Source: Pseudomonadota bacterium (lineage in GTDB: Bacteria; Pseudomonadota; Gammaproteobacteria; Xanthomonadales; Xanthomonadaceae). From it: a DNA stretch of 46,474 bases. Position numbers and translations under genes: made by a program. Position 1 is the first letter of the stretch; the number at the start of each line of letters is the position of its first letter. The stretch is from assembly GCA_030528565.1 (NCBI GenBank), contig JAUMYP010000001.1, forward strand, positions 75,715-122,188. The letters run 5' to 3'. The notes under the pieces are model-generated. The model saw nothing but the letters and a program-made list of their open reading frames with translations. It was not told the DNA's origin and did not search any database. Positions 23,606 through 45,455 of this stretch are shown here, one piece after another.

Positions 23606-23611
23606 ACCGTA

Positions 23612-24361: not shown

Positions 24362-25756
24362 TCAGGGCTTTTGAGCAGGCTCTTGGCCGAAGCGTTTTTC
24401 AAGCATGGCAAAACAGGCGCGCAGTCCCTGGGCTTCGCCGCCTGCCGGGCGGCCGGGGCGGTCGGTGTCGTTCCAGGAATACACGTCCAGATGCGCCCAG
24501 GGCAGGTTCTCGGGGACAAAGCGTTGCAGGTACAGCGCGGCGGTGACGCTGCCGGCCATGGAGGAGTTGCTGGCGTTGGCCAGGTCGGCGATGCCGCTTT
24601 TCAGATAGCGCATATACGGCTGCCACAGTGGCATTCGCCACAGCGGGTCAAAGCAGTCCCGTCCGGCTTGCAGCCAGTCCTCGGCGACAGCGTCATCATT
24701 GGCGTACAGCACCGGCAAGTCCGGCCCCAGTGCAATGCGTGCGGCGCCGGTCAGGGTGGCAAAGTCAATCATCAGTGCGGGTTTGTCCTCGGCTGCGCGG
24801 GCGAGGGCATCGCATAGCACCAGGCGGCCTTCGGCATCGGTATTGTCGATTTCCACGCTCAGCCCCTTGCGGGTGGCGATGACTTCGCCCGGGCGCAGCG
24901 CATTGGGGCCGACGGCGTTTTCCACGGCGGCTACATACAGCGACAGCCGTACCGGCAGGCGGCGCTTGATGATGAGTTCGGCCAGGGCGATGGCATGTGC
25001 GGCGCCGCCCATGTCCTTTTTCATATTGCGCATGCCGGCGCTGGCCTTGAGGTTGAGGCCGCCGGTGTCAAAGCATACCCCTTTGCCGACCAGCGCCAGG
25101 CGCGGATGGGCGCTCTCACCCCACTCAAGATGTAGCAGGCGTGGTGCGCGGTGCGAGGCGCGGCCGACGGCATGGATGGCCGGGTAGTTTTGCGTGAGCA
25201 AGTCATCAGCTGCGATGACTTCGAGCTGGCCGCCGTGGCGGTCGGCCAGCTCGCGCACGAGGGCTTCCAGCTCATCCGGGCCCATATGTTCGGTCGGGGT
25301 GTTGATTAGGTCGCGGGTACGCACGCAGGCGGCGAGCAAGTCCAGCGTGCGTGCATCGGCCTTATCGTCCAGCACCAGCCGGGCGGGCTCGCGCAACGGT
25401 TTTTTGTAGCGGTCGAAGCGATAGCTGCCCAGCCCCCAGCCCAGCAACAGGGCGTTGCGCGCTGCGGCATCCAGCTCGCTGCCGGGCTGCCAGTCGCCAG
25501 GCGGCAGGGCAAATGGGGCGTGAGCATAGGCGAACGGGTCAAGCCGGTTTTCCATGCCAAGCACAGCCGATTCCACCCCTCCTTCGCCGGGCAGCAGAGC
25601 CACGGTGCCGGAGGCGGCAGTGTATTTCTGCGCATCCAGCCACTGGCCGATGGCGGGCAATTGCAGTTTGCGCCAGACATCGAATTCATCGCTGCGCACG
25701 CAGTAAAAGGTTTTGGCGTTTTCGCCCTGGCGGGTCAGTCCGGGTTGCGGGTTCAT
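24362..25756 (-). CDS. Leucyl aminopeptidase family (M17) metallopeptidase
   Basis: A 464-residue cytosolic aminopeptidase. The C-terminal catalytic domain has the M17 signature NTDAEGRL, preceded by GKGVCFDTGGLNLK (metal-ligand lysine and aspartate) and KKDMGGAA. The N-terminal domain is divergent and shorter than PepA, as in the PepB-like or leucyl aminopeptidase family proteins. It removes N-terminal residues from peptides. Its start overlaps the stop of the upstream HAD gene by 4 bp. The last codons run into a degenerate copy of the dispersed repeat (24369-24383). Confidence 0.92.
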   Translation of the reverse strand: MNPQPGLTRQGENAKTFYCVRSDEFDVWRKLQLPAIGQWLDAQKYTAASGTVALLPGEGGVESAVLGMENRLDPFAYAHAPFALPPGDWQPGSELDAAARNALLLGWGLGSYRFDRYKKPLREPARLVLDDKADARTLDLLAACVRTRDLINTPTEHMGPDELEALVRELADRHGGQLEVIAADDLLTQNYPAIHAVGRASHRAPRLLHLEWGESAHPRLALVGKGVCFDTGGLNLKASAGMRNMKKDMGGAAHAIALAELIIKRRLPVRLSLYVAAVENAVGPNALRPGEVIATRKGLSVEIDNTDAEGRLVLCDALARAAEDKPALMIDFATLTGAARIALGPDLPVLYANDDAVAEDWLQAGRDCFDPLWRMPLWQPYMRYLKSGIADLANASNSSMAGSVTAALYLQRFVPENLPWAHLDVYSWNDTDRPGRPAGGEAQGLRACFAMLEKRFGQEPAQKP

Positions 25757-26499
25757 TGCGGTTCTCTAGAAGGATTTTGGGCTTCCAGCCAGTCGGCCAG
25801 ATGCGTGAGGGTGGAAAAAACAAGGTCGGGCGTGAAGTCGCTGCGCGGCCAGGCGGGGTGGCGGGGGTAGGCATCTTCACGATGCAGCCAGCAGGCTTTC
25901 AAGCCTGCCTGGTGTGCGCCGGCAATATCGGTTTCGATGTCATCGCCAACATGCAGGGTGTTGGCAGGGGCGCTGCCCAGTGTTTGGCAGGCGTGCAGGA
26001 AAATTGCCGGGTCGGGTTTGGCCTTGCCAAACATGCGTGCGCTGACCTGGCTGTGGAAATGTCCGGCAATGCCGATGGCGGCCAGGTCGGCATTGCCATT
26101 GGTCAGCGCGCAGACCGGCACACGGCGGGCGATACGCATGAGTGCGGCATGGGCATCGGGATAGAAATCCACGCGGTTGCGCTCGGCAAAGAATGCTTGA
26201 TAGGCCGGTTCGGCCAGTTCGCTGTCGTAGCCGCTTTGGGTCAGCGCCATTGCAATGCACTGGCGGCGCAGCCAACTGGCATCGTGGGATTTTTCCGGGA
26301 AGCGTGCAATCAGCTGCTCACGCAGCTCACGCATGGCGGAGGGCGGAAATTTCCCGGCTGCCCTGGGGGCGTGTTGCAGAAACCAGCGGTGCAGTACCTG
26401 CTCGATACGCTCACCAATCGGGGCGAATGGCCAGAGCGTATCGTCCAGGTCCAGGGTGATGGCCTGGACTGCAAAATCAGGCACCGCGCTGGGACTCAT
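25753..26499 (-). CDS. HAD-superfamily phosphatase (YigB-like)
   Basis: A 248-residue haloacid-dehalogenase hydrolase. Motif I DLDDTLWP is at about residues 17-24, motif II is ALTNGN, the lysine of motif III is GKAKPDP, and motif IV is HVGDDIETD. An alpha-helical C1 cap lies between motifs I and II. The family member YigB of E. coli dephosphorylates FMN and sugar phosphates; substrate here is inferred only. It overlaps both neighbours by 4 bp. Confidence 0.88.
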   Translation of the reverse strand: MSPSAVPDFAVQAITLDLDDTLWPFAPIGERIEQVLHRWFLQHAPRAAGKFPPSAMRELREQLIARFPEKSHDASWLRRQCIAMALTQSGYDSELAEPAYQAFFAERNRVDFYPDAHAALMRIARRVPVCALTNGNADLAAIGIAGHFHSQVSARMFGKAKPDPAIFLHACQTLGSAPANTLHVGDDIETDIAGAHQAGLKACWLHREDAYPRHPAWPRSDFTPDLVFSTLTHLADWLEAQNPSREPQ

Positions 26500-26903
26500 A
26501 CCAGCCCGTCGCGGCGCAGTTTTTCGTGATGTTGGCGCAGGGTTTCGTTCTCGGCGCTGCCATTGCTGGCCGTGGCAGCTGCACCGGCGGCAGCTTGTGC
26601 GCCCTGGCTGGCAGCAGCCTGCATGTGTGAAAACTGTGCGCTTGCGGCCTTCATGCCGCCGCTAATCAGATTGGCAAAGCCCATGCCCAGTTGCAAAACA
26701 TTGCTGCCGCCGAGTTTGCTTACCAGCTTGCCGTGGCCGACCAGAAAGCCCGAGGCCAGTCCGGCCACCAGCACGCGCCCCGGTGTCCAGGCCGCGTGCC
26801 AGGCGCTGCGGGTCTGGCGCAGATTGGCGCCCACGCTACGTCCGTGTGCTTCCAGCGTTTGCTCGGCTGCGGTGACTTTTTCAATCAGTTGATGAAAGCC
26901 CAT
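26496..26903 (-). CDS. Hypothetical protein with one hydrophobic segment (YqjK-position)
   Basis: About 135 residues. It has an N-terminal helical part (MGFHQLIEKVTAAEQTLEAHGRS) with a WHAAWTPGRVLVAGLASGFLVGHG segment that may insert in the membrane. An alanine-rich second half ends in a charged tail. I do not recognise the family with confidence. It lies behind YqjD- and YqjE-like genes, the position of yqjK in E. coli, so a related envelope role is possible. ATG 26903 is used; a TTG lies one codon earlier. Confidence 0.7.
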   Translation of the reverse strand: MGFHQLIEKVTAAEQTLEAHGRSVGANLRQTRSAWHAAWTPGRVLVAGLASGFLVGHGKLVSKLGGSNVLQLGMGFANLISGGMKAASAQFSHMQAAASQGAQAAAGAAATASNGSAENETLRQHHEKLRRDGLV

Positions 26904-31886: not shown

Positions 31887-34472
31887 ATGTCGTCCATCTC
31901 TCATGCCGCCCGTTGGCGGGTTTTAAAGTTCGGTGGCAGCAGTGTTTCGCAGCGGGCGCGCTGGGACAATATCGGCCGCATTGCCGCTGCGCGGGCGCAG
32001 CATGGCCGGGTATTGGTGGTGGTATCGGCGCTTTCGGGGGTGACCAATCAACTGCAGGCGATTGCCCAGGGCGAGAATATCGCCGCCCATGTCGCCGCGC
32101 TTGTTGACCGGCATCTGGACTTTGCCAAGGCGTTGGCGCTGGATGCCGACAGCGTGCTGGGTGAGCGTCTTGCAGCCTTGCAAGCTCTGGCCTGTGATGC
32201 GCGCGCGGCCAGCCGCAGCCTTGACTGGCAGGCAGAAGTGCTGGCGCAGGGCGAGCTGCTTTCTTCTACGCTGGGGGCGGCCTATTTGCGCGCGCAGGGA
32301 CTGGATTTTGGCTGGTGCGATGCGCGTAACTGGCTTTCGGCGCTTGCCCTGCCCAACCAGAGCGACTGGGCCGGGCGTTTGTCGGTGAATTGCCAGCGCC
32401 ATGCGGATGAGGCCTGGCGCCAGCGTTTTGCCGCGCAGCCTGGCCGGATGTTGCTAACCCAGGGTTTCATCGCCCGTCACCCGGATGGCGGCACGGCGAT
32501 TCTGGGGCGGGGTGGCTCGGATACTTCGGCGGCGTATTTCGGTGCCTTGCTGGGTGCCGATGCGGTGGAAATCTGGACCGATGTGCCGGGCATGTTCAGC
32601 GCCAATCCGCGTGAGGTGGCCGATGCGCGGCTGCTGGCGCGGCTGGACTATGCCGAGGCGCAGGAGATTGCCACCACCGGCGCCAAAGTGCTGCATCCGC
32701 GGGCTATCGGCCCCTGCCGCGAGGCGCGGGTGCCGATGGCGATTCTGGATACTTCAAGGCCGGAATTTCCCGGCACGCGCATTGATGAGCGTGCCGCCAC
32801 CGTGCCGGGCGTGAAGGCCATCAGCCGCCGTAACGGCATCGTGCTGGTGTCGATGGAATCTATCGGCATGTGGCAGCAGGTCGGCTTCATGGCCGATATT
32901 TTCGAGCGATTCAAACGCCACGGCCTGTCGGTGGACCTGATTGGCTCCTCGGAAACCAATGTCACGGTATCGCTGGACCCGAGCGAAAACCTGATGACCA
33001 CCGATGTGCTCTCGCGCCTGTCCGAAGATTTGGCCAGGGTGTGCCGGGTGAAGGTGATTAGTTCCTGCGCGGCCATCACCCTGGTGGGGCGCGGCATGCG
33101 TTCGCTGCTGCACAAGCTCTCGACGGTCTGGGCGCGCTTTGGGCAGGAGCGTGTGCACCTGATTTCGCAGTCCTCCAATGACCTTAACCTGACCTTCGTC
33201 ATCGACGAGATGGATGCCGATGGCCTGATACCGCACCTGCATGCCGAGTTGATAAAAAGCGGCGCCATGCCGGTGCGGGAGAAGCATGTATTTGGCAGCA
33301 GTTGGCGCCGGCTGAATGAGGCGCAAAAACCGCCGCTGCCGAAGTGGTGGCAAAGCCGCCGCGCCGAGTTGCTGGCCTGCGCCGCCGAAGGCACGCCGCG
33401 CTATGTATATGACCTGCCGACCTTGCGCGCGCAGGCGGCCAGGCTCAAGGCCGTGAATGCTGTGGAGAGGCGCTATTTCGCCATCAAGGCCAATCCGCAT
33501 CCGGCCATTTTGCGCGCGCTGCATGAGGAAGGCTTCGGGTTTGAGTGCGTGTCGCTGGCGGAAATCGAGCATGCCTTTGCCCAGGTGCCGGGCTTGCAGC
33601 CCGGAGATGTACTGTTCACCCCGAGCTTTGCGCCGCGTGCCGAATATCAGGCCGCGCTGGCGCGTGGCGTGCGCCTGACGCTGGACAATCTGGAGGCGCT
33701 GCACAACTGGCCGGAACTGTTTGGCGGTAAGGAAATCTGGCTGCGCGTGGACCTGGGGCGCGGCGATGGTCATCATGCCAAGGTGGTCACCGGCGGCAGC
33801 GCCTCCAAGTTCGGCCTGCCGCTGGCGCGTATCGAGGCTTTTGTTGACAAGGCGCGTGCGCTGGATATGCGCATCACCGGGCTGCATGCGCATCTGGGCA
33901 GCGGCATCCAGTCGCCCGCGCATTGGGCAGGGGTGCAGGCCGAGCTTGCCACCCTGGCCGATGGCATTGGCACCATCGAAACCTTGAACCTGGGCGGCGG
34001 CCTGCCGATTCCCTATCAGCCCGAAGATGACGAATTTGACCTGGACGGCTGGGCCCGTGCGGTGGCCGAGGTCAAGGCGGCCTTCCCGCGCTATCGCATC
34101 GCCATCGAGCCGGGACGCTTCCTGGTGGCGCAGTGCGGCGTGCTGCTCAGCCATGTCACCCAGGTGGTGGAAAAAGAAGGCGTGCGCCGCGTTGGCCTGG
34201 ATGCGGGCATGAATGCGCTGCTGCGCCCTGCCCTGTATGAGGCCTGGCATGACATCCGCAATCTCTCGCGGCTGGAAGATGCGCGCACGCGCAGTTTTGA
34301 TGTGGTCGGGCCGATTTGCGAAAGCGGCGATGTATTGGGGCACGGCCGCGAACTGCCGGCGGCCACCACCGAGGGCGATGTAATGCTGGTTGCCGATGCC
34401 GGCGCCTATGGCTATGTGATGGCCAGCCACTACAACCTGCGCGCCTTGCCGCAGGAGCATGTGCTGGATTGA
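31887..34472 (+). CDS. lysAC: Bifunctional aspartate kinase/diaminopimelate decarboxylase (LysAC)
   Basis: An 861-residue fusion catalysing the first and last steps of lysine synthesis. Residues 1-300 are the aspartokinase domain (KFGGSSV from Lys14; GRGGSDTSAAYFGALLGAD). ACT domains follow to about 455. Residues 480-861 are a PLP-dependent diaminopimelate decarboxylase with Lys534 in YFAIKANPHP, HAHLGSGI, the EPGRFLVAQ segment and GPICESGDVLG. This fusion is characteristic of Xanthomonas and relatives. No good ribosome site precedes ATG 31887. murL follows 13 bp later, tying meso-DAP use to peptidoglycan genes. Confidence 0.96.
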   Translation: MSSISHAARWRVLKFGGSSVSQRARWDNIGRIAAARAQHGRVLVVVSALSGVTNQLQAIAQGENIAAHVAALVDRHLDFAKALALDADSVLGERLAALQALACDARAASRSLDWQAEVLAQGELLSSTLGAAYLRAQGLDFGWCDARNWLSALALPNQSDWAGRLSVNCQRHADEAWRQRFAAQPGRMLLTQGFIARHPDGGTAILGRGGSDTSAAYFGALLGADAVEIWTDVPGMFSANPREVADARLLARLDYAEAQEIATTGAKVLHPRAIGPCREARVPMAILDTSRPEFPGTRIDERAATVPGVKAISRRNGIVLVSMESIGMWQQVGFMADIFERFKRHGLSVDLIGSSETNVTVSLDPSENLMTTDVLSRLSEDLARVCRVKVISSCAAITLVGRGMRSLLHKLSTVWARFGQERVHLISQSSNDLNLTFVIDEMDADGLIPHLHAELIKSGAMPVREKHVFGSSWRRLNEAQKPPLPKWWQSRRAELLACAAEGTPRYVYDLPTLRAQAARLKAVNAVERRYFAIKANPHPAILRALHEEGFGFECVSLAEIEHAFAQVPGLQPGDVLFTPSFAPRAEYQAALARGVRLTLDNLEALHNWPELFGGKEIWLRVDLGRGDGHHAKVVTGGSASKFGLPLARIEAFVDKARALDMRITGLHAHLGSGIQSPAHWAGVQAELATLADGIGTIETLNLGGGLPIPYQPEDDEFDLDGWARAVAEVKAAFPRYRIAIEPGRFLVAQCGVLLSHVTQVVEKEGVRRVGLDAGMNALLRPALYEAWHDIRNLSRLEDARTRSFDVVGPICESGDVLGHGRELPAATTEGDVMLVADAGAYGYVMASHYNLRALPQEHVLD

Positions 34473-34485
34473 GGAGAAAGCGTGA

Positions 34486-35841
34486 ATGAGTAGTTTCGGG
34501 CGCGACCAGATGCGCGTGTTTCGTTTTGTGCGCCGTGACATGGACTTGTCCAGCGGCAGCATTGAGCTGGTATATGCCTTTGACGATGGCGCAGAATGGA
34601 TTGAGCGCATCAGCATCCCCGGTGCGCCGTTTGTGCTGGATGAGGCGCGCGCCGGGGCATTGCAGCAGGCCTTGACCCTGCTGCACCTGATTGCCGGGGT
34701 GAGCTATTACAAGGCGGCGGTGCCGGGCGAAATCCGCGTGGAATACACGCAACTGGATGAGGCCAGCGTCGCGCTGCTGGACACCATCTATTTGCAGGGG
34801 CTGGGTGAATTTGCCTATCGCAACGGGCTGGATTTGCGCGCGCGCATCCGCTTCCCGCGTGCGGGCCAAGCACTGCCGCAGGCGCCTGCGCTTGGCCTGC
34901 GCCAGCACGCGCTGGTGGCCATTGGCGGCGGCAAGGACTCGCTGGTGTCCATCGAAACCCTGCGCCGCGCCGGGGAGGCGCAAACCGTGACCTGGATTGG
35001 CAACTCGCAACTGATTCGCGCCTGTGCCGAACATACCGGGCTGGCCACGCTCAATATCAGCCGCCAGCTTGCCCCCGAGCTTTTCGAGGCTAATCGTCAG
35101 GGCGCATGGAACGGGCATATTCCGGTGACGGCCATCAATTCCGCCATCATGGTGGTGGCCGCCATCCTGACCGATGCCGACCAGGTGGTGTTTTCCAATG
35201 AACGCTCGGCCAGCTACGGCAGCCTGATTGCAGGCAGCGGCGAAGTGAACCACCAGTGGTCGAAGGGCTGGGATTTCGAGCGCCGCTTTGGCGAGCATGT
35301 CGCGCAGCATGTGGCCGCCGACCTGCATTACTACTCGCTGCTGCGGCCCTTGAGCGAGCTGGCGGTGGCGCGGCAGTTTGCCAAAAGCAGCCATTACGAT
35401 GCGCATTTTTCCAGCTGCAACCGCAATTTCCATATCCTTGGCGAGCGCCCGGCCAGCCGTTGGTGCGGGGTCTGCCCGAAGTGTCATTTCGTGTTTCTGG
35501 CACTTGCCCCGTTCATGCCCAAGCCACGGCTGACCGGCATTTTTGGCCGCAACCTGCTGGATACCGAAAGCGAGCAGGCCGGTTTTGATGCGCTGATGGA
35601 ATACCACGACCACAAGCCGTTTGAATGCGTAGGCGAAGCGCGTGAATCGCGTGCGGCGATGGCGGCGCTGGCCGAGCGTCCGGAGTGGCAGGAGGATGCG
35701 CTGGTACGCCGTTTCGCCAGGGAAATCGCCCCGCAATTGCAGGGCGAGGACCTGTCGTTGGCGGCATTGCTCAACCCCGCTGGCGAGCATCGCATTCCGC
35801 CTGCCCTGTGGGAGCGCATCCGTGCAGATTTCGCAGCTTGA
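34486..35841 (+). CDS. murL: UDP-MurNAc-L-Ala-L-Glu epimerase MurL
   Basis: A 451-residue enzyme matching the MurL family described in Xanthomonas oryzae, which epimerises the terminal L-Glu of UDP-MurNAc-L-Ala-L-Glu to D-Glu in an ATP- and Mg-dependent reaction. A PP-loop-like nucleotide motif GGGKDS is at residues 147-152. A C-x2-C-x2-C cluster (Cys327, 330, 333) may bind metal. ATG 34486 has GAGGAG upstream, overlapping the lysAC stop. Its end overlaps the murD2 start by 20 bp. This replaces the usual MurI glutamate racemase route. Confidence 0.93.
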
Positions 35842-37207
35842 CGGCCAGCGCGTCGCGCTCTGGGGCTGGGGGCGGGAAGGCCGCGCCGCCTGGCAGGCAT
35901 TGCGCCGCCGCCTGCCCCATCTGGCGCTGACGTTGTTTTGCAATCCGGCTGAAGCGGCCGATGCGGCGCAACTGGGCGATGCCCGGCTGTCGTTCGAGTT
36001 CGAGGCCAGTGGCGAAAACCTGGCGCGTTTTGACTGGGTGGTGAAATCCCCCGGCATCAGCCCGTATGGCGAGGCAGCGCAGTTTGCCGCCGCGCGCGGC
36101 ACGCGCTTTATCGGCGGCACCGGGCTGTGGTTTGCCGAGCGCGGTGCGGATGCATCCATCTGCTGCGTTACCGGCACCAAGGGCAAGAGCACCACCAGCG
36201 CGCTGCTCGCACATCTTTTGCGCGCTGCCGGGCAGCGCACTGTACTGGCCGGCAATATCGGCCTGCCGCTGCTGGAGCTGCTGGACACGCAGGCCGAACG
36301 CTGGGTAGTGGAGCTGTCCAGCTACCAGACCCGGGATGTGGCCGAAAGCGGCGTGCGTCCGCAGCTTACCATTGTCAGTAATCTCTTTCCCGAACATCTG
36401 GACTGGCATGGCAGCGAGCAGTGCTATGTCGAGGACAAACTGGCGTTGCTGACGGGCGCGCGCCCGCAGCACGCCATTTTGAACGCCAACGATGCGCAGC
36501 TTGCGGCGCTTGACTTGCCCGACACCATCATCCACTGGTACGGCCAGCCCGATGGCTGGCATCTGCGCGGCGATGTGCTGTATCGCGGTGGGCAAAAAAT
36601 ACTCGATACTCGCCGCCTGCCACTGCCGGGACGGCATAACCGCAGCAACCTGTGTGCGGTACTGACTGCGCTGGAAGTGCTGGGACTGGATGCCGTGGCG
36701 CTTGCGCCGCAGGCCGAAACCTTCATGCCACTGCCCAACCGCCTGCAAACCTTGGGACGGCGTGAAGGCGTACTCTGGGTCAACGACTCCATCAGCACCA
36801 CCCCGCACGCCACCCTGGCGGCGCTGGAGGTATTTGCTGATGAAAAAACCGTGGTGCTGGTCGGCGGCCATGACCGCGGGCTGGACTGGCAAGCCTTTGC
36901 CGATGGCATCCGCCCACGTCCCCCGCATGGCATCGTCACCATGGGCGCGAACGGCGCGCGCATCCACGCATTGCTGGCGCCGCTGGCCGCAGAAAACCGC
37001 TTCAAACTGGCTGCCGCAGAAAACCTGCCCGCAGCCGTGAATGCGGCAAAACAGATGCTGCAAGGCAAGGGCGTACTGCTGCTCTCCCCCGGCGCACCCA
37101 GCTTCGGCGCCTACCGTGATTATGTGGAACGTGGCCAACACTTCGCCCGCCTTGGCGGCTTCGACCCGGCGCTGATTGCTTCAATCAAGGGACTTGGCGT
37201 GGCTTGA
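35822..37207 (+). CDS. murD2: UDP-MurNAc-L-Ala-L-glutamate ligase MurD2
   Basis: A 461-residue Mur ligase that adds L-Glu, not D-Glu, to UDP-MurNAc-L-Ala; MurL then inverts it. The P-loop GTKGKST is at about 118-124. The central ligase motif [18 protein letters not shown], and C-terminal [15 protein letters not shown] and [10 protein letters not shown] are conserved. GTG 35822 is chosen with GGGAG 8 bases upstream; the frame stays open upstream inside murL. Its 3' end has a second, displaced copy at 37996-38127, beyond a toxin-antitoxin pair, which marks an insertion here. Confidence 0.92.
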
Positions 37208-37237
37208 GTAAAACATCCAAGCGAGCCGAATTAATAG

Positions 37238-37256
37238 CCATGGCAGTTTGCTATGG
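37238..37256 (+). terminator. Hairpin after murD2
   Basis: CCATGGCA / GTT / TGCTATGG forms an 8-bp stem with one G-T pair, 30 bp past the murD2 stop. There is no T run, so it is a weak terminator at best. It lies at the left edge of the inserted segment. Confidence 0.35.
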
Positions 37257-37279
37257 CGCCGATGGGGGATTGCTTGCAA

Positions 37280-37323
37280 TTGCACGGAGAGGTATCAAAG
37301 CATTAGTATGACCATATGGTCAT
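37280..37323 (+). promoter_or_regulatory. Promoter and operator of the toxin-antitoxin pair
   Basis: TTGCAC (37280-37285), 18 bp, then TAGTAT (37304-37309) form a plausible promoter. A perfect 16-bp palindrome ATGACCATATGGTCAT (37308-37323) overlaps the -10 region, 15 bp before the antitoxin start. This is the expected place for autorepression by the antitoxin or the antitoxin-toxin complex. Confidence 0.65.
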
Positions 37324-37338
37324 TTTTGAGGGCAAGAG

Positions 37339-37575
37339 ATGAAAAATGTATCCGTTGTAGAAGCCAAGGCGCATTTTTCGGCCTTGCTGACCGAGGTGGA
37401 GGCGGGTGCGCAAGTGGCTGTTACCCGGCATGGCAAGGTGGTAGCGCGTCTGGTGCCCGAGCAGGAGCCAACGGCATTGGATGCGCTCAAGCACCTGTGG
37501 GCAGGCGATAGGCGTGAAATGGATTTGCAAGAGCCTGATGACCTGCCGGCGTCGCCCGTGGCCTCGCTGGATTGA
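37339..37575 (+). CDS. Type II antitoxin, Phd/YefM family
   Basis: A 78-residue antitoxin. The N-terminal DNA-binding and dimer fold is clear: MKNVSVVEAKAHFSALLTEV then VAVTRHGKVVARLVP, the usual Phd/YefM pattern. The acidic C-terminal part (GDRREMDLQEPDDLPASP) should wrap the toxin. ATG 37339 has GGGCAAGAG upstream. The toxin gene follows at 3 bp. The pair sits between two copies of the murD2 3' end. Confidence 0.93.
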   Translation: MKNVSVVEAKAHFSALLTEVEAGAQVAVTRHGKVVARLVPEQEPTALDALKHLWAGDRREMDLQEPDDLPASPVASLD

Positions 37576-37578
37576 GTC

Positions 37579-37983
37579 ATGTTGTATGTGCTTGATAGCA
37601 ATATCCTGATTGCCATGCTCAAGGGAGATGCCCGGGTCGCTGCGCGCCTGGCAACGCTGCCCTTGAGTCACCTGCGCCTGTCTTGCATCGTGCTGGGTGA
37701 GCTGGAGTTTGGTGCGGAAAAAAGTGCTTGCAGTGTGCAAAACAGGGCGCGCATCGCCGAATTGAAGCAATGCATGCCGTTGCTGGGTATCGATGCAGAA
37801 ACCGCCTCACATTACGCTCATATCCGCCAGGTGCTGGAAGCTCGCGGTACGCCTATTGGTGCCAATGATCTGTGGATTGCCGCACAGGTGCGCAGCATTG
37901 GCGCTACGCTGGTCAGCCATAACCTGCGCGAGTTTCAAAGAGTGGATGGCTTGCTACTGGAGGACTGGTTGGCACCTCGCTGA
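37579..37983 (+). CDS. vapC: VapC-family PIN-domain toxin
   Basis: A 134-residue PIN-domain ribonuclease. Acidic active-site residues Asp6 (VLDSNIL), Glu41 (GELEFG) and Asp97 (ANDLWIAA) are intact, with VSHNLREFQRV at the fourth site. Such toxins usually cut tRNA or rRNA. Intact residues suggest an active toxin held in check by the Phd-type antitoxin just upstream. Confidence 0.93.
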   Translation: MLYVLDSNILIAMLKGDARVAARLATLPLSHLRLSCIVLGELEFGAEKSACSVQNRARIAELKQCMPLLGIDAETASHYAHIRQVLEARGTPIGANDLWIAAQVRSIGATLVSHNLREFQRVDGLLLEDWLAPR

Positions 37984-37995
37984 TACAGCTCACGG

Positions 37996-38127
37996 CTGCT
38001 GATTTCCCGCGGCGCACCGGGTTTGGGTGCTTGCCGCGATTATGTGGAACGCGGCAAACACTTCGCCCGCCTCGGTGGCTTTGACCCGGCGCTGATTGCC
38101 GCCATCAGCGGGCTTGGGGTGGCTTGA
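37996..38127 (+). pseudogene. Displaced 3' end of murD2
   Basis: These 132 bp (44 codons including the TGA) align without gaps to the last 132 bp of murD2 (37076-37207). Of the 43 encoded residues 35 match. Changes are concentrated near its 5' edge (Pro to Arg, Ser-Phe to Gly-Leu, Tyr to Cys in the [11 protein letters not shown] region). It has no start of its own and is cut off from the rest of murD2 by the toxin-antitoxin genes. Read as the original gene end, displaced when the pair arrived with a replacement end, now decaying. Confidence 0.85.
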
Positions 38128-38186
38128 ATGACTCTGATGCTTTTCGGCGTGAGCTCGTTTTGAGCAGGGATATTGCCGTTTGTTTG

Positions 38187-38430
38187 ATGCCGGGATATGC
38201 GCCCGGCAGCGCACCTACTTTCTTTGTTGGCAAAGATGAGGCAAAGAAACCAGCCCTGGCTGCCGTGCCCCGCTACGCGGGATGCCCTGTGTTCCTCGCG
38301 GCCAATGGCGGCAGGGCAAACTTAGCTAAGCTCAAACACGCCCTGCCTTCTTCCATTGGTCGCTGCGGTACTCGGCACGGCAGAACAGGGCGGAAAATCA
38401 AAAGCAGCTGCCGGGCGCATATCCCGGCAT
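38187..38430. repeat. 244-bp nested inverted-repeat element (MITE-like)
   Basis: Outer arms of 24 bp are perfect inverse complements (38187-38210 and 38407-38430; core CCGGGATATGCGCCCGG). Inside, in order, are CTGCCGTGCC/GGCACGGCAG (38260-38269, 38374-38383), CCAATGG/CCATTGG (38302-38308, 38353-38359) and GGCAGGGC/GCCCTGCC (38310-38317, 38340-38347). A palindrome CTTAGCTAAG (38321-38330) is at the centre. A small hairpin TCTTTG/TTGG/CAAAGA lies at 38221-38236. No credible protein is encoded. It looks like a miniature mobile or palindromic element that could fold as one long hairpin. Confidence 0.75.
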
Positions 38431-38517
38431 TGAGAAGCCGCCAGTGGCCGCAGCATCCGAAACAAGCACCTCACCTCAATTGGCTCTGGCAGGCACTACG
38501 GATGCGGAGTGCCTGCC

Positions 38518-40041
38518 TCAACGCCCGCTTGTCTGGCTGCGGATAAAGCGCCGCACGTCGTTGGCGAGCTTCACCAGTTCCGGCTCGTTGACGTACATCA
38601 TGTGCCCGGCATCGTAGTAATGCCATTGGATGCGCTCTTGCGGGATGCCGCTGCGGTTGAGTGAATATTCCGCGCCCAGCAGCGGGGTGGCATGGTCGTA
38701 CCAGCCTTGCAGGGCGAGGATGCGCAGGCCACTGTTTTGCCGCAGCAGGCGGCCGACATACGGGGCGAGGCTGATATACGCCGTGCGGCCACCGCTTTGC
38801 CCGCCACTGGGGTTCCAGTCCCAGGGGCCGACGCCGCCGATGACGTTGTACTGGATATCCGGCGAGTATTTCAGTGTTTGCCGCGCATAGCTGTTCATCG
38901 CGGCGGTATAGGCCGCATCAATGCCGTAGAAGCTGGGGTCGTTTTCGCCAAATTCACCGGCATTGTCGGCATCACGCCCGGTATAGCGGCCATCAAGCCG
39001 CCCCACCACGAGACCTTGCTCGCGCAGCAGCTCCTTGTAAAAGCGCCCGGGCACAACGCGCAGCTCGGCGCGCTCCAGATAGTCCTCGGACAACCCGCTG
39101 TAACGGGCAAGTCCGGCGCGGACTTTGGCGCGCTCATCCGCAGGCAGGGCATTGCCCTTGACCAGTGCGCTCAGATACGGGCCAAGGGCAAAGCGTCGTG
39201 CTTCCTCGACAAAATCCGCGACCTGGGCTGGCGGATTCGCTACCTTGCCGTGATACCAGGCAGTGGCGGCATAGGTTGGCAGATTGACCACATGCGCCAT
39301 TTCGTTGCCCGGCACTTCTGCCGACAGGCCAAAGTCGAGGATGGTGGAAATCAGCAGGATGCCGTTCAGGGCGACATCGTTGTAGCCGCCTTCCAGCTCG
39401 TTGGCCACGGCAATCGAGCGAGTAGTGCCATAGCTTTCGCCGCCGACATATTTGGGCGAGTTCCAGCGCTGGTATTTGCCAAGCCACAGGCGGATGAACT
39501 CGGCGATGGAGACCGCATCGGATTTGACGCCCCAGTACTCCTTGGCCTCGGTGCCGGGCAGGGCGCGACTGAAACCGGTGCCGACCGGGTCGATGAATAC
39601 CAGGTCGGCTACGTCCAGCAGGGCATGCGGGTTGTCCATCAGCGGATAGGGCGGCGCGCCGTCATCGCGGGCATCGGAAGGCACGACCACACGTTTGGGG
39701 CCAAAGGCGCCCAGGTGCAGCCACAGCGAGCCGGAGCCGGGGCCGCCGTTGAACAGGAACAGCACCGGCCGCGAGGCATCTCGCGGGGTTTTCAGATAAG
39801 TGGTGGAGTAAATCGCCGCTTTGGGCTTGCCGTCCTTGTCCTTGAGAAAGATTTCTCCGGCAATCGCCTCATACGCCATCTTGCTGCCGCCAAATTGGCC
39901 GCTGTGCCGGGTGACGGACTCCAGCGGCTGCCGGGCTGTCTGCTGCGGGTTGGCCTCCTGTTTGTCCTGCGCGGCCAATGGCGAGGCAAGGGCCAGTATC
40001 AATAGCGCACTGAGGGCGGCAATATGGGAGCGATAGCGCAT
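38518..40041 (-). CDS. S10-family serine carboxypeptidase-like protein, secreted
   Basis: About 507 residues. A signal peptide MRYRSHIAALSALLILALAS ends near ASPLAAQ, so it is exported. The substrate-binding FNGGPGSGS is at 98-106, the catalytic Ser203 is in GGESYG, and the aspartate and histidine lie near WYDHATPLLG and DAGHMMYVNEP. The length agrees with bacterial S10 peptidases common in xanthomonads. ATG 40041 is chosen for the signal peptide; the frame is open 25 codons further upstream. It probably removes C-terminal residues from peptides in the periplasm or medium. Confidence 0.9.
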   Translation of the reverse strand: MRYRSHIAALSALLILALASPLAAQDKQEANPQQTARQPLESVTRHSGQFGGSKMAYEAIAGEIFLKDKDGKPKAAIYSTTYLKTPRDASRPVLFLFNGGPGSGSLWLHLGAFGPKRVVVPSDARDDGAPPYPLMDNPHALLDVADLVFIDPVGTGFSRALPGTEAKEYWGVKSDAVSIAEFIRLWLGKYQRWNSPKYVGGESYGTTRSIAVANELEGGYNDVALNGILLISTILDFGLSAEVPGNEMAHVVNLPTYAATAWYHGKVANPPAQVADFVEEARRFALGPYLSALVKGNALPADERAKVRAGLARYSGLSEDYLERAELRVVPGRFYKELLREQGLVVGRLDGRYTGRDADNAGEFGENDPSFYGIDAAYTAAMNSYARQTLKYSPDIQYNVIGGVGPWDWNPSGGQSGGRTAYISLAPYVGRLLRQNSGLRILALQGWYDHATPLLGAEYSLNRSGIPQERIQWHYYDAGHMMYVNEPELVKLANDVRRFIRSQTSGR

Positions 40042-40127
40042 CGGGCAACTCCGGCATCTTGGGAAAGATGCCGATGTTGCGGCAAAAAAACTTGGCCGCC
40101 ATCGGCCAAAGGTCATGGCGGAGCGAT

Positions 40128-41135
40128 TTATTTTTCGCGGTTAAGTGCGTAATGCGCCAGGCCACGCAGCGCCGCGCAGGCTTCGTTGTCGGGCAGGGGA
40201 GCAAGTGCGGCCTCGGCACGCCGGGCAAATTCCGCAGCGCGTGCGCGGCTATAGCTGAGCGAGTCATGTGCATTGATGGCGGCAATCACTTCCGGCAGGG
40301 CGCTGACATCGCCGTTTTCGACAATTTGCCGCAGTCGCTCGCAGGTGGCAGGGTCGGCATGCTGCATGACATGAATCAGCGGCAGGGTCATCTTGCCTTC
40401 GGCCAGGTCATCGCCGAGATTCTTGCCCAGCGTTTGCGCATCCGAGGCATAGTCCAGCACATCGTCAGCAATCTGGAAGGCATAGCCCAGCGCTAGGCCG
40501 TAATCGTGCATCGCCTCCTGGGTGGCGGCATCAGCACCTGCCAGCAGTGCGCCAAGACGGGTGGCGGCGGCAAACAAAATCGCTGTCTTGCGCTCAATGA
40601 CGCGTAGATAGGCGGTTTCGTCGGTATCGGGGTTGCGTACATGCAAAAGTTGCAGCACTTCGCCTTCGGCAATCTGGTTGGTGGTGTCGGCCAGAATCTG
40701 TTGCACCGGCATGGATTCAAGCTCGACCATCAACTGGAAGCTGCGCGAATACAAAAAGTCGCCGACCAGCACGCTGGCAGCATTACCCCAGACCGCATTG
40801 GCGGTACGGCGGCCACGGCGCAGCTCGGACTCGTCCACCACATCGTCATGCAGCAGGGTGGAGGTATGGATGAATTCCACCACCGCGGCCAGTTGATGGG
40901 CATCCGCGCCCTGATATCCCAGCGCGCGCGCAGCCAGCAGCAGCAACATGGGGCGCAGGCGCTTGCCACCGGCGCTGATGATGTATTCGGAAATCTGGTT
41001 GATAAGCAGCACATCAGAGGCCAGACGGCGGCGGATCAGCGCATCCACGGCGGCCATGTCGGGCGCGGCAAGCGCCTGGATGGCGGGCAGGTCAAATTGG
41101 GGCGTTCGGACTTGGACGGTATTCATATTGCGCAT
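40128..41135 (-). CDS. ispB: Octaprenyl (polyprenyl) diphosphate synthase IspB
   Basis: About 335 residues, a trans-prenyltransferase making the side chain of ubiquinone. First Asp-rich motif LLHDDVVDES, second QIADDVLDY, with GGKRLRPMLLLL upstream. The start is either ATG 41135 (MRNMNTVQ) or ATG 41126 (MNTVQ). 41135 is chosen because a perfect TATAAT ends 6 bases before it, which would make a leaderless mRNA; there is no ribosome site for either. ssb is divergent. Confidence 0.93.
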   Translation of the reverse strand: MRNMNTVQVRTPQFDLPAIQALAAPDMAAVDALIRRRLASDVLLINQISEYIISAGGKRLRPMLLLLAARALGYQGADAHQLAAVVEFIHTSTLLHDDVVDESELRRGRRTANAVWGNAASVLVGDFLYSRSFQLMVELESMPVQQILADTTNQIAEGEVLQLLHVRNPDTDETAYLRVIERKTAILFAAATRLGALLAGADAATQEAMHDYGLALGYAFQIADDVLDYASDAQTLGKNLGDDLAEGKMTLPLIHVMQHADPATCERLRQIVENGDVSALPEVIAAINAHDSLSYSRARAAEFARRAEAALAPLPDNEACAALRGLAHYALNREK

Positions 41136-41141
41136 TGCGCC

Positions 41142-41147
41142 ATTATA
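41142..41147 (-). promoter_or_regulatory. -10 element of ispB (TATAAT)
   Basis: A perfect TATAAT on the minus strand, separated by six bases (GGCGCA) from ATG 41135, so transcription should begin at the start codon itself. No convincing -35 hexamer is seen 16-18 bp upstream. Confidence 0.55.
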
Positions 41148-41237
41148 GGCGGGCGGCATTGCGCGGTATCATCCCATCCCTGTGGCGGCACTTGGGCCGT
41201 AAAACACCAGCAGAACACAATCAGGTAAGGAAAAGAC

Positions 41238-41801
41238 ATGGCACGTGGCATCAACAAGGTGATTCTGGTCGGCAATCTCGGCAATGACCCGGAAACCTCA
41301 TACACCCAAAGCGGGATGACGGTCACCAAAATCAGCCTGGCGACCACCACGGTACGCAAAGACCGTGACGGCATGCAGCAGGAAAAAACCGAATGGCATC
41401 GCGTGACTTTCTTTGGCAAGCTTGCGGAAATCGCCGCCGAATACCTGCGCAAAGGCCGTCAGGTGTATGTGGAAGGGCGGCTTAGCTACGGCAGTTATGA
41501 AAAAGACGGCGTGCGCCACTACACCACCGACATCATTGCCGATGAAATGCAGATGCTGGGCGGCGGTGGCCGTGGGGATGATGGCGGTTTTGGTGGTGGT
41601 TATGAGCAGCGCGGCCCGCGCCAGCAACCGGCACAACGCCGTGAGCCGCAGCAGCAGGGCGGCTATGCTGATGATGGCTACGGCAATAACTACGGCAGTA
41701 GCCAGGGCAGCAGTCGCGCACCGCAACGCCAGTCCAGCCCGCCACCTGCGGCGGATTTTGGCGGCGGTGACGGCTTCGATGATGACGATATCCCGTTCTG
41801 A
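41238..41801 (+). CDS. ssb: Single-stranded DNA-binding protein Ssb
   Basis: A 187-residue tetrameric protein that coats single-stranded DNA in replication, repair and recombination. The OB fold covers about residues 1-110 ([51 protein letters not shown]). A long Gly/Gln/Arg-rich linker follows, then the acidic protein-interaction tip DDDDIPF. ATG 41238 has TAAGGAAA upstream. Confidence 0.97.
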
Positions 41802-41899
41802 CCGAAAATTGCTGTGAGTGCGTCTGGCGGCGGTCAGCCGCAGACGCTACGCCTTCGTACTTGTTGATTACCTGACTTGTTTGTTTAAGGAAACCCTTG

Positions 41900-43963
41900 A
41901 TGAAGCTCCATTCTGCGCTTTTGCCGTTTGCGCTGTTTTGCGCTTTGCCTGTCGCTGCCCAGGCCAGTCGTGGTTTTACCGTGGAGGACATGGTGCGGCT
42001 GGACCGCTACAGCGCGCCGCAGATTTCCTCTGATGGCCAAACGGTGATTTACCTGCGCCGCACGGTGGATGCCGGGCTCAAGGCCAGCACGGCGCTATGG
42101 GCGGTGGCAAGCCAAGGCGGCGCGGCGCGGCAAATCAGCCCGGTGGGCTGGAGTGTCAACAGCCCTTCACTCTCTGCCGATGGCAAGACGGTGTATTTCC
42201 TGAGCGCTAAGCAGGGCAGCTCGCAGTTGTATGCGCAGTCGCTGGCAGGCGGCACGCCGCGGGCGCTAACCGATTTGCCGCTGGATGTGGAGACTTACAA
42301 GTTTTCGCCCAGCGGCGATGCGGTGGCGCTGGGGCTGGCCGTGTATCCGGACTGTGGCGCGGATTTGGCCTGTAGCAAGCAACGTCTGGAGGATGCGGGC
42401 AAGCAAAAAACCTCCGGTGTTCTGTACCAGCAAATCTTTGTGCGTCACTGGGATACCTGGGCTGATGGCCGCATGAACCGTGCCTTTGTGGCGCGCGTGG
42501 GGGATGCGCCTGCCAAAGACGCTGTGCTGGTCAGCGGCGGTGTGGCGGGCAATATCCCGTCCAAACCGTTTGGCGATTTTTCTGACCTGGCCTTCTCGCC
42601 CGATGGCAGGCAGCTGGTGATGAGTATCCGCGAAGCGGGGCGTGGCGAGCCGTGGAGCACCAATTTCGACCTGTATCTGGTCAATGCCGATGGCAGCGGC
42701 CAGCCGCGCAACCTGACCCGGGGCAACCCGGCCTGGGACGGCGGCCCGGTATTTTCGGCCGATGGCAAGAAGCTCTATTACTGGGCGATGCAGCGGCCCA
42801 AATTCGAGGCCGACCGCCATGCGCTGACCGAGATGAATCTTGAAACCGGGCAAGTGCGCGAAATCGCCCCGAATTGGGACAGGTCGGCCAATGGCATCAC
42901 CTTGTCGGAGGATGGCAAGACCATTTACGCCAGCGCCGATGATATCGGGCAGCGTCCGCTGTTTGCCATTGACATCGCCACAGGCCAGGTACGCAAACTG
43001 GCCGAGGGCGGCAGCACTGGCAATATCTCGGTGGGCGGCGGCAAGCTGGCCTTCACCCGCAACAGCCTGAAGTCGGGCGACCAGATTGTTGTCATGCCCG
43101 CAACAGGCGGCCATGCCCGCGCGCTCAGCCCTTCGGCTGCCGAGCAGCAACCGGCGGTGCGTTTTGGCGACTTCGAGCAGTTCAGCTTCAAGGGCTGGAA
43201 TGACGAAACCGTGTACGGCTATGTGGTCAAGCCCTGGAATTACCAGGCAGGCCAACGCTATCCGGTGGCGTTTTTGATTCATGGCGGCCCGCAGGGCAGC
43301 TTTGGCAATGGCTGGAGCTATCGTTGGAACCCGCAAACCTACGCAGGCCAGGGCTATGCGGTGGTGATGATTGATTTCCACGGCTCCACCGGCTATGGCC
43401 AGGCGTTTACCGATGCCATCAGCGGTCACTGGGGCGACCGCCCGCTGCAAGACCTGCAGAAGGGCTGGGCAGCGGCGCAGCAGCAATACCCGTGGCTGGA
43501 TGGTGAGCGCGCCTGTGCGCTGGGGGCAAGCTATGGCGGCTTCATGACCAACTGGATTGCCGGCAACTGGTTCAATGCCGATGGCAGCGCGCCGTTCCGT
43601 TGTCTGGTCACCCATAACGGCGTATTCGATACCCGTTCGATGGGGCTGGTGACCGAGGAGCTATGGTTCACCGAATGGGAGATGGGCGGCACGGTCTGGG
43701 AAAAGCCGGAAAACTACGAGCGCTTCAATCCCGCGCGTCATATCGGCAAATGGCAGACGCCGATGCTGGTGGTGGGCGGACAAAACGACTTCCGCGTGCC
43801 GATTGACCAGAGCCTATCCGCCTTCACCGCCTTGCAGCGCCGTGGCATCGACTCGCAGTTCCTGTACTTCCCCGATGAAAACCACTGGGTGCTCAAATCG
43901 CATAACAGCGTGCAGTGGCATCGCACCGTCAATGCCTGGCTTGCCAAGCATCTTGGCAAGTAA
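41900..43963 (+). CDS. S9-family prolyl oligopeptidase-like peptidase, secreted
   Basis: About 687 residues. A signal peptide MKLHSALLPFALFCALPVAA directs export. The N-terminal half is a beta-propeller of WD40/TolB-like blades (repeated SPDG/SADGK turns). The C-terminal alpha/beta-hydrolase domain has Ser544 in GASYGG, Asp in GGQNDFRVP and His in DENHWV. Similar to xanthomonad dipeptidyl aminopeptidase/acylaminoacyl peptidases. ATG 41900 follows AAGGAAAC. A terminator follows. Confidence 0.93.
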   Translation: MKLHSALLPFALFCALPVAAQASRGFTVEDMVRLDRYSAPQISSDGQTVIYLRRTVDAGLKASTALWAVASQGGAARQISPVGWSVNSPSLSADGKTVYFLSAKQGSSQLYAQSLAGGTPRALTDLPLDVETYKFSPSGDAVALGLAVYPDCGADLACSKQRLEDAGKQKTSGVLYQQIFVRHWDTWADGRMNRAFVARVGDAPAKDAVLVSGGVAGNIPSKPFGDFSDLAFSPDGRQLVMSIREAGRGEPWSTNFDLYLVNADGSGQPRNLTRGNPAWDGGPVFSADGKKLYYWAMQRPKFEADRHALTEMNLETGQVREIAPNWDRSANGITLSEDGKTIYASADDIGQRPLFAIDIATGQVRKLAEGGSTGNISVGGGKLAFTRNSLKSGDQIVVMPATGGHARALSPSAAEQQPAVRFGDFEQFSFKGWNDETVYGYVVKPWNYQAGQRYPVAFLIHGGPQGSFGNGWSYRWNPQTYAGQGYAVVMIDFHGSTGYGQAFTDAISGHWGDRPLQDLQKGWAAAQQQYPWLDGERACALGASYGGFMTNWIAGNWFNADGSAPFRCLVTHNGVFDTRSMGLVTEELWFTEWEMGGTVWEKPENYERFNPARHIGKWQTPMLVVGGQNDFRVPIDQSLSAFTALQRRGIDSQFLYFPDENHWVLKSHNSVQWHRTVNAWLAKHLGK

Positions 43964-43971
43964 TCCATACC

Positions 43972-44009
43972 CAAACCCCTGCCGCAGCATTGGGCAGGGG
44001 TTTGTTTTG
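43972..44009 (+). terminator. Rho-independent terminator after the S9 peptidase
   Basis: A 12-bp perfect stem CAAACCCCTGCC/GGCAGGGGTTTG (43972-43983, 43993-44004) with a 9-base loop, followed by TTTTG. Confidence 0.85.
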
Positions 44010-44032
44010 TCCGCTGAACCGGAGATAAGCCG

Positions 44033-45295
44033 ATGGCGCTAACTGCCGCCTCCAATACCACCGCCCCACTGATTAGCAATGACGTGGTGGTATTTGGCCT
44101 GCTGGCCGCCACGCTGGGGCTGATTTTTTATCTTGCCAGCGGCCCTACGCCGTTCTGGAAGAAGTTCTTCGCCTGGGTGCCGGCACTGCTGCTGTGCTAT
44201 TTCATCCCGGCGCTATACAACACCTATGGCCTGATTGATGGCACCCGCAGCGCCATCTACAACCCGGTCGCCAGCCGCATCCTGCTGCCTGCGGCACTGG
44301 TGTTGCTCACCCTTTCGGTGGACTTGAAAGGCATCCTGAAACTCGGCCCACGGCTGTTGTTCGTGTTTTGTGCAGGCACCCTGGGCATCGTGCTCGGCGC
44401 CATCGTCAGCTTCGTGCTGCTGCAATGGCTCTGGCCTACGGCGGTGGCCGGGGACACCTGGAAAGGCATGGCGGCACTGGCTGGTAGCTGGATTGGCGGT
44501 GGCGCCAATATGGTGGCGGCGCGGGAAATCTTTGAAGTCGATGCCACCTTGTTTGGCCAGTTTTCAGTGGTGGATGTGGCCATTGCCAATATCTGGATGG
44601 CGACCTTGCTGTTTCTTGCCGGGCGCTCGGCGCAAATCGACAAGGCCAGCCGCGCCGATACCCGCGCCATCGACGAAATGAAGGCGCGTGTCGCCGCCTA
44701 TGAGGCGGCCAATGCCCGTATTGCCAGCCTCACCGACCTGATGCTGATTATCGGCCTTGCCTTTGGCGTGGTTGGGCTGGCACATGCCATTGCCACCCCG
44801 GCATCTGCCTGGGCGGGGGTGCATGTGCCCTATGCTGCGCGGCTCAGCCTGGATACGCCGTTTGTGTGGATTGTGATGTTCTCCACGTTTACCGGCCTTG
44901 CGCTCAGCTTTACCCGGCTGCGCAAGCTCGAAGACGTGGGCGCATCCAAACTGGGGGCGCTGTTCCTGTATTTCCTGATTGCCAGCATCGGCATGCAGAT
45001 GAACTTCAAGCAACTGGCTGACCGCCCGGAACTCCTGGTGATTGGCGTGTTGTGGATGCTGGTGCATATCGGCGTGCTGTGGGCAGCAGCGCGCATGGTG
45101 AAGGCGCCGCTGTTCTATTTCGCCATGGGCTCGCAGGGTAATATCGGCGCGGCGGCTTCCGCCCCGGTGGTCGCCGCCGCCTTCCACCCCTCGCTGGCAG
45201 CGGTGGGCGTACTGCTGGGCACGGTGGGCTATGCCACCGGCACCGTGGTCGCCTACGGCCTTGGCCTGATACTGAAATGGCTGGCCGGTGCATGA
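44033..45295 (+). CDS. DUF819-family membrane protein
   Basis: A 420-residue polytopic membrane protein with about ten or eleven helices. The family (YjcL-like) is recognised by ALAGSWIGGGANMVAAREIFEVD and, near the end, GSQGNIGAAASAPVVAAAFHPSLAAVGVLLGTVGYATGT. This two-half pattern suggests a transporter; no substrate is established. ATG 44033 follows GGAGATAAG. It stands alone behind a terminator. Confidence 0.9.
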   Translation: MALTAASNTTAPLISNDVVVFGLLAATLGLIFYLASGPTPFWKKFFAWVPALLLCYFIPALYNTYGLIDGTRSAIYNPVASRILLPAALVLLTLSVDLKGILKLGPRLLFVFCAGTLGIVLGAIVSFVLLQWLWPTAVAGDTWKGMAALAGSWIGGGANMVAAREIFEVDATLFGQFSVVDVAIANIWMATLLFLAGRSAQIDKASRADTRAIDEMKARVAAYEAANARIASLTDLMLIIGLAFGVVGLAHAIATPASAWAGVHVPYAARLSLDTPFVWIVMFSTFTGLALSFTRLRKLEDVGASKLGALFLYFLIASIGMQMNFKQLADRPELLVIGVLWMLVHIGVLWAAARMVKAPLFYFAMGSQGNIGAAASAPVVAAAFHPSLAAVGVLLGTVGYATGTVVAYGLGLILKWLAGA

Positions 45296-45455
45296 GCTTG
45301 GCCGCATGCATTGCAAACGACGGGCAGCCTGCAAACTGCCCGTTGTGATTTTGATGGCCTGGCCGGTTGCAACCGCGGCATCAGTATTGGCGGATGCAAG
45401 CCTGGCATTCATCCCTGTTGTGGCAATGTGTGCGCTTTCGTATTGAGAACCGCAG

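Follow-up and report, generated by a model that had tools for sequence, protein, structure and literature searches.

How did a lone toxin–antitoxin pair come to lie between two copies of the end of the cell-wall gene murD2 in the 46,474-nucleotide (nt) stretch of Xanthomonadaceae DNA analysed here (the window), which belongs to a genome of 2.25 Mb in 71 contigs? The last 132 nt of murD2 at 37076–37207 (the near copy) are directly repeated at 37996–38127 (the far copy), and a repeat search over 35000–40000 finds the two copies ungapped, 83% identical and spaced 920 nt apart. A blastn comparison of the window with itself gives this repeat an E value of 6e-32. Apart from a pair of pilin genes, the comparison shows no further direct repeat of at least 40 nt within 6 kb at E ≤1e-3. 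The translations of the two copies have the same residue in 35 of the 43 codons. Between the copies lie a Phd-type antitoxin gene (PF02604, E = 7.6e-12) and a VapC-type toxin gene (PF01850, E = 1.3e-15). An earlier note on this DNA had described both the recurrence and the pair within it, and these descriptions hold. The reading preferred here, to which a probability of roughly 0.4 is given, is that the pair came in with a piece of the 3′ end of a murD2 gene from a related donor bacterium and entered the resident murD2 tail by recombination.

The pair as an insertion behind murD2

The gene murD2 (35825–37207, plus strand) encodes a MurD-family ligase (TIGR01087, E = 1.6e-86) and follows murL (34486–35841, plus strand; NF041275, E = 7.1e-244, above the cut-off); the name MurD2 is based on this neighbour and on a study of Xanthomonas (PMC8788868; here and below, papers are cited from the portions of their text that were available). 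Xanthomonas and its relatives are without a gene for D-glutamate formation, and MurD2 and MurL substitute for it (PMC8788868). The glutamate racemase model TIGR00067 has no match in the genome of the window, whereas 10 of 14 control genomes are matched, eight of them above the cut-off. All 60 genomes searched have a murD2 match, some only a partial one. In a model of Xanthomonas oryzae MurD2, Pro433 and Phe435 are near the glutamate (PMC8788868), and a Pro-Ser-Phe motif in the tail studied here appears, on the match of the motif, to be the counterpart of this glutamate site. The tail would be needed for function, and the gene would probably be essential. In another genome (G008:C143:20080-21615), the MurD2 match is split into two pieces about 180 nt apart within a single open frame of 537 amino acids, suggesting an in-frame insertion inside the protein.

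An empty site with a single tail copy is found in two related species, G005 and G009. A synteny alignment has shown that the window segment 30316–37209 is continuous with 38409–45361 in G005, with 45 nt between them, and the bases that follow the murD2 stop codon in G005 match those after the stop of the far copy, not those after the stop of the near copy. By sequence reading and synteny, 38128–38186 is the flank that stands directly 3′ of murD2 in G005. The aligned pieces in G009 are bounded by 37210 and 38407, with 188 nt between them. The next gene after murD2 in both species is a serine carboxypeptidase-like gene of the S10 family (38518–40116 in the window, minus strand; PF00450, E = 1.6e-12). 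The distance from murD2 to this gene is about 157 nt in G005 and about 290 nt in G009. An empty site, which the earlier note had named as support, is therefore present in G005, where murD2 joins the far-copy flank, and G009 likewise is without the pair. Since both species are without the pair and the far-copy flank follows murD2 directly in G005, the view that the pair is an insertion behind murD2 is supported.

At E 1e-4, a query with the tail finds a match in 294 of the 297 genomes surveyed in the family, three genomes being without any match, and two tail matches are found only in G000 and G258; those of G258 lie on separate contigs in long open frames. An adjacent tail duplication is present in one of the 297 genomes and absent from the other 296 at this threshold. 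The insert DNA (37208–37995) has a match in one of 395 family genomes, that of the window itself, with two candidates scored per genome. Neither a full murD2 tandem beside the site nor a far copy without the pair, the two arrangements that the earlier note had named as speaking against its proposal, was seen.

The region 3′ of murD2 is plastic. By reading of the open frames, a small hydrolase-like gene comes next at no fewer than 13 of the loci from 29 relatives, the S10 gene in G005 and G009, and other genes elsewhere. A third relative, G012, keeps the window segment 30322–37207, and nothing further was matched in 60 kb of its sequence. By reading of its loci L003 and L074, the place of the S10 flank behind murD2 is taken by a transposase-like stretch and a different gene, and this position was, on this reading, hit again in G012.

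Age and mosaic pattern of the two tails

The two tails were compared with those of G005, G009 and G012, and the firmest result of the comparison is that they are in conflict over age. Silent divergence per site (dS) between the near and far copies is 0.56, or 0.53 over codons 14–43. The corresponding values against G012, G005 and G009 are 0.35, 0.35 and 0.74 for the murD2 body and 0.08, 0.42 and 0.54 for murL. Judged from these values, the divergence between the two tails is as large as that between separate species. A further value, for the S10 gene against G005 (with a divergence at protein-altering sites, dN, of 2.1), came from a misalignment and was set aside. Nine private changes in the last 93 nt of the near copy are too many for a recent duplication. 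Over the same 93 nt, however, the far copy has only two changes private with respect to G005 and G009, both silent, where neutral decay predicts about 24, and none that alters the protein, where about 17 are expected; the Poisson probabilities are 2e-8 for all changes and 5e-8 for protein-altering ones, with the expectation clocked on the silent changes of the near copy and few sites available. Therefore, either one tail derives at least partly from a different lineage or a later exchange altered the near tail.

The damage to the far copy (plus strand) is local. Five amino-acid changes fall in its first 39 nt and none, relative to G005, in its last 93 nt. P5R, S9G, F10L and Y13C affect positions conserved in 28 or in all of the 29 relatives, and Ser and Phe of the Pro-Ser-Phe motif are altered. 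The earlier note was right that conserved positions are hit, but all the amino-acid damage is limited to the first 13 codons, and the last 30 codons are protein-identical to those of G005. Its view of the far copy as the old, decaying end of the gene is not supported in that form, as only the first 39 nt look decayed or foreign.

These counts bear directly on the idea of an old duplication in tandem within this lineage, either of the 3′ end of murD2 or of the whole gene with later trimming, in which the pair was inserted between the copies while the far copy decayed neutrally. The unique states that both tails share at tail positions 21 and 102 would be in its favour. However, the Poisson counts reject a far copy that has been decaying neutrally in place, and the single tail of G005 and G009 and the 296 family genomes without an adjacent duplication also speak against this explanation, which is scarcely credible.

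The differences between the tails are, moreover, unevenly distributed along them. With G005 and G009 in agreement as the reference, changes private to the far copy lie at tail positions 7, 14, 25, 27, 36, 38, 78 and 81, and changes private to the near copy (plus strand), all within positions 42–123, lie at 42, 57, 61, 105, 108, 113, 114, 117 and 123. Fisher's test for a split at position 40, a cut chosen afterwards, gives p = 0.002, and p = 0.028 is obtained for the mosaic when all three references are required to be unanimous. A permutation that allows for the choice of the split gives p = 0.013 with G005 and also with G009 as the reference. The mosaic of differences is suggestive and statistically modest.

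Exchange of DNA between species has taken place close by. The window is 99% identical to G012 over 34437–35525, which is most of murL, with a change point at about 35526, and 84–86% identical over 19686–26529; by this contrast, the murL stretch is a recent exchange between species. A foreign origin of murD2 itself was considered from the same comparison (murL 99% and murD2 87% identical to G012) and rejected, since the identity to G012 elsewhere is 84–86%, so that it is murL that was exchanged. These observations count in favour of the preferred reading, and they are also relevant to the possibility that a linear fragment was imported, with homologous recombination upstream and an illegitimate join in the resident tail. 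The near copy and part of the murD2 body would then be donor DNA, and the far copy would be wholly resident, with its first 39 nt decayed. No circle is required, events of this kind are known in naturally competent bacteria (PMC3240628), and the window contains, by reading, pilus-assembly-like genes and two pilin-like genes in addition to the exchanged murL stretch. However, uniform decay leaves unexplained why the first 39 nt hold six of the eight far-private changes (binomial p = 0.010), and homology-facilitated illegitimate recombination mostly deletes resident DNA rather than duplicating it (PMC3240628). Linear import is therefore considered unlikely.

Routes of entry and relics at other pairs

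In the simplest form of the preferred reading, a fragment consisting of a donor murD2 tail, the spacer, the operator, the antitoxin gene and the toxin gene would have closed into a circle, with the toxin end fused at the joint to the inside of the murD2 tail. A single crossover with the resident tail, somewhere at tail positions 39–104, would then leave the near copy resident on the 5′ side of the crossover and donor-derived on its 3′ side; in the far copy, donor sequence would stand on the 5′ side and the resident tail, with the native flank behind it, on the 3′ side. The mosaic described above has this form. The empty sites, the age conflict and the recurrence of the layout at a second locus likewise speak for this reading. 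An integrase would be unnecessary. The outside origin of the 3′ part of the near copy, the circle and the single crossover are inferred, and either tail may be the native one. Since the near and far tails share states that are absent from the closest relatives, the donor would have been a close relative. Insertions that bring a new copy of the tail would be favoured, as residues of the substrate site appear to lie within it. In E. coli crosses with a trimmed and recircularised plasmid, 56 of 60 clones carried part of a gene end in duplicate, over 109–950 bp in the 14 that were sequenced (PMC3240628). The single crossover at lacZ is thus alike in that general recombination leaves a gene-end duplication around an insert, but it involved a laboratory plasmid and drug-marker selection (PMC3240628), whereas the present locus would be a natural counterpart with a toxin–antitoxin pair.

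Several observations weigh against the preferred reading. Neither a donor nor a free circle was found. No other lineage was seen to carry the near tail with the pair, and in 16 other genomes of the genus all matches were murD2 tails or short fragments of 28–59 nt; the suggestion of the earlier note that the near copy came from another strain or species stands insofar as the tails are too different for a local duplication, and a lineage that would confirm it is missing. With G012 as the reference, the mosaic is gone (permutation p = 0.76); the tail of G012 is divergent at its end, G005 and G009 are unusually alike over the last 60 nt or so, and the reference set is therefore not clean. The silent differences at tail positions 78, 81 and 87 contradict the mosaic. 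The near and far tails share the states at 21 and 102 that are missing from G005, G009 and G012, and share further states, at 45 and 99, that set them apart from G005 and G009 only, so that both tails may come from one lineage. The dS of the near copy against G005 is 0.51 over the whole tail and 0.73 over its last 93 nt, as compared with 0.35 for the body, and with so few sites the near copy is not clearly more divergent. Finally, a second locus, described below, fits a duplication of the target as well as it fits a single crossover.

Nobusato et al. (2000) and Furuta et al. (2010) have reportedly described the insertion of restriction-modification genes with long and variable target duplication. 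Such duplications are known for lone restriction-modification units (PMC3874152, PMC3031569). Their insertions are similar to the present locus in that a lone addictive unit without any transposase found has on either side a copy of about 100 bp of the target gene, in direct repeat, and in that relatives have the empty site; they differ in that the unit here is a toxin–antitoxin pair and the copies are 17% different and mosaic. The pair may likewise have copied about 130 bp of its target on entry, with the near tail altered by a later exchange of murD2 and the 5′ part of the far copy decayed. The size and anatomy fit the "order of 100 bp" duplications of those units (PMC3874152), the unique shared states are expected of copies with one ancestor, and repeats bracket other pairs as well. 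However, this explanation requires a second recombination that ends inside the tail, the mechanism of that class of insertion is itself unexplained, and the enrichment of repeats at other pairs shrinks when the window is left out. On balance, a target duplication is rather unlikely, though the most probable of the alternatives.

The closest parallel is found in one genus of the same family as the window, in G106 (L092, 4974–7767) and G062 (L091, 3847–6787), where toxin relatives also sit between copies of the end of a host gene. The order in G106 is a CN-hydrolase gene (PF00795), a pair with a PIN_3 toxin, a relic, a MazE-type antitoxin with a PIN toxin, and a further relic. The small partner frame of the PIN_3 toxin, which has no Pfam match, is a presumed antitoxin. 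The first relic covers 27 hydrolase-tail codons (E = 2e-6), and the second, behind the VapB/VapC pair (PF04014, PF01850), the last 36 codons of the gene at 61% identity (E = 1e-11); the repeat, 221 nt long with its flank, restarts 10 nt after the VapC stop. A complete second copy of the hydrolase gene, in a repeat of 905 nt at 94% identity, is present in G062, where it starts about 98 nt behind the VapC stop. The repeats in both genomes include flank that resembles a dispersed repeat, and no empty site was found for this locus.

Repeats around other pairs were scored by comparing the 250 nt behind the toxin stop with the 2.5 kb before the pair. Nineteen pairs were entered, of which two (L049 and L102) were too short, leaving 17 testable; the Phd-only loci L106–L108 of the window's own genome were left out. 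The controls were 241 ordinary gene stops, after exclusion of eight artefactual stops near stretch ends. Scores of at least 60, a threshold set after the scores had been seen, were reached by 4 of the 17 pairs (the window, G062, G106 and G369) and by 2 of the 241 controls, both in G062 (one-sided Fisher p = 0.0002); if the window, which prompted the test, is omitted and G062 and G106 count as one, the figures are 2/15 and 2/241 (p = 0.018). At L100 in G369, copies of a short intergenic repeat stand on both sides of a Phd/VapC pair, one copy beginning right behind the toxin stop, and in G043 (L103), of the same genus, a Phd/VapC pair lies between weaker repeats of the same type (score 43).

Direct repeats of at least 40 nt are present in 6 of 21 other VapC/Phd loci (L034, L035, L039, L044, L070 and L071). 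An interpretation of those in L034 and L035 as dispersed intergenic repeats was rejected, since they prove to be relics of a gene end in G106 and a complete second copy of the gene in G062. At L039 both copies are on the same side, the repeat at L044 is intergenic, one copy at L070 lies inside a recombinase frame, and the repeat at L071 is part of a MucR gene. At L071, on a Mesorhizobium plasmid, a partial MucR-type gene (16–275) stands 5.9 kb before the full one (5882–6188), with a toxin–antitoxin pair and panBC between them.

It is possible, if doubtful, that lone pairs can spread by riding on gene ends, on fragments that carry the pair along with a host gene's 3′ end, re-supplying the end of the gene that they enter and leaving a relic behind the toxin stop; repetition of the process would yield the gene–pair–relic–pair–relic array of G106. 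If this is true, ordinary recombination acts as the integrase of lone pairs. A gene-end relic behind a pair may be a recurring scar of its entry into chromosomes, and, since the second locus shows such relics with other toxin families and another host gene, the question is testable and the footprint can be searched for at scale. The substitution pattern of the 132-nt footprint tells an old duplication from imported DNA.

The entry of the prophage e14 into icd and that of tRNA-targeting islands have the same anatomy, in that the 3′ end of a gene is entered, the near copy completes the gene and a partial relic remains on the far side. In e14, 163 bp of the icd 3′ end are duplicated in this way (PMC6379469). 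A site-specific recombinase could have integrated a larger element here, with the remainder and the integrase since deleted. However, e14 is a site-specific prophage of 15 kb (PMC6379469), whereas the present insert is 0.8 kb long and only the antitoxin and the toxin were identified between the copies, with no recombinase among them (the other frames are short or overlapping and were not profile-searched). Such an origin is very improbable.

Excision of e14 leaves an intact icd gene (PMC6379469), and recombination between the two murD2 tails would restore the gene in a similar way. Identical runs of 14, 16 and 17 nt are shared by the tails at positions 43–56, 62–77 and 88–104. Since these runs lie in the normally coding part of the far copy, recombination within them would remove the pair and leave a normal murD2, and the claim of the earlier note that the pair would be hard to lose without damage to murD2 is not supported. 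Addiction to the toxin, if the toxin is active, would oppose the loss; murD2 would not. The locus shows that a pair can settle right behind a probably essential gene without breaking it, and a clean loss could be possible.

The ccd pair between folA and apaH likewise occupies a plastic slot between genes, in which repeat elements accumulate as well (PMC7167474). The available portions of that review make no mention of an entry footprint, whereas a 132-nt footprint persists here, and they describe the integration mechanisms of toxin–antitoxin pairs as unelucidated (PMC7167474). A limited literature search of titles and abstract openings found no report of a lone toxin–antitoxin pair with a gene-end duplication. 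The locus is a variation on known gene-end insertions.

The pair, its origin and its surroundings

The antitoxin (37339–37575, plus strand; 78 amino acids) belongs to the Phd/YefM family (PF02604; TIGR01552), and the toxin (37579–37983, plus strand; 134 amino acids) is a VapC-type PIN-domain protein. Both Pfam matches are above their cut-offs and the antitoxin gene stands directly before the toxin gene, 3 nt apart, as in a type II system. The tRNA(fMet)-specific VapC models NF047863 (E = 1.7e-31; 109.3 bits against a cut-off of 140) and NF010285 (78.2 bits against 143) match below their cut-offs. The acidic residues of PIN motifs 1–3, presumably those of the active site, agree with both aligned relatives; motif 4 reads S-H-N where the relatives have T-D-N.

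The closest toxin relatives among the matches listed are on plasmids of Mycetohabitans (64–65% identity) and Mesorhizobium (62%), and plasmids contribute five records at 60–80% identity among the best 5000 records. The toxin is matched in 9 of 297 genomes of the family at E 1e-20, including its own, the others being at most 50% identical; in 7 of 299 genomes of the order at E 1e-28, including its own, with 55% as the best other identity; and in 1 of 369 genomes of the class at E 1e-35, its own. Phages yielded only five weak toxin records and IMG/VR one locus at 43%. Since family matches are at most 50% identical and the nearest relatives listed are on plasmids, the pair is probably of outside origin.

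An operator-like palindrome precedes the antitoxin gene (37303–37325, plus strand), with a perfect 16-nt core at 37308–37323. It has a counterpart in the remote relatives of Mycetohabitans and Mesorhizobium, which also have the same order of antitoxin and toxin and whose antitoxins can be aligned as well, and alignment with these two plasmid relatives shows that the conserved unit spans from about 37303 to the toxin stop. The spacer between the murD2 stop and the operator (37208–37302) has no family match outside its own genome, and plasmid matches to the query 37208–37995 begin only at its base 96. The G+C content of 37208–37338 is 46.6%. Protein similarity to the two plasmid relatives stops at about the toxin stop, before a 12-nt junction (37984–37995) that leads to the far copy. 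The far tail is in the reading frame of the toxin, with the toxin stop and four codons between them, and the frame is open to the old stop (37981–38127). No promoter-like hexamers or terminator-like site were found between the genes, Rfam gave no match within 37000–38600, and PADLOC gave no match.

Just behind the far copy lies a unit of about 244 nt (38187–38430) with perfect 24-nt inverted arms, which looks like a small dispersed repeat element. A similar unit stands inverted at the same place in G009, and G005 has a single arm there. Elsewhere in the window, the two pilin-like genes stand in tandem at 18631–19571, and their 5′ parts are 76% identical.

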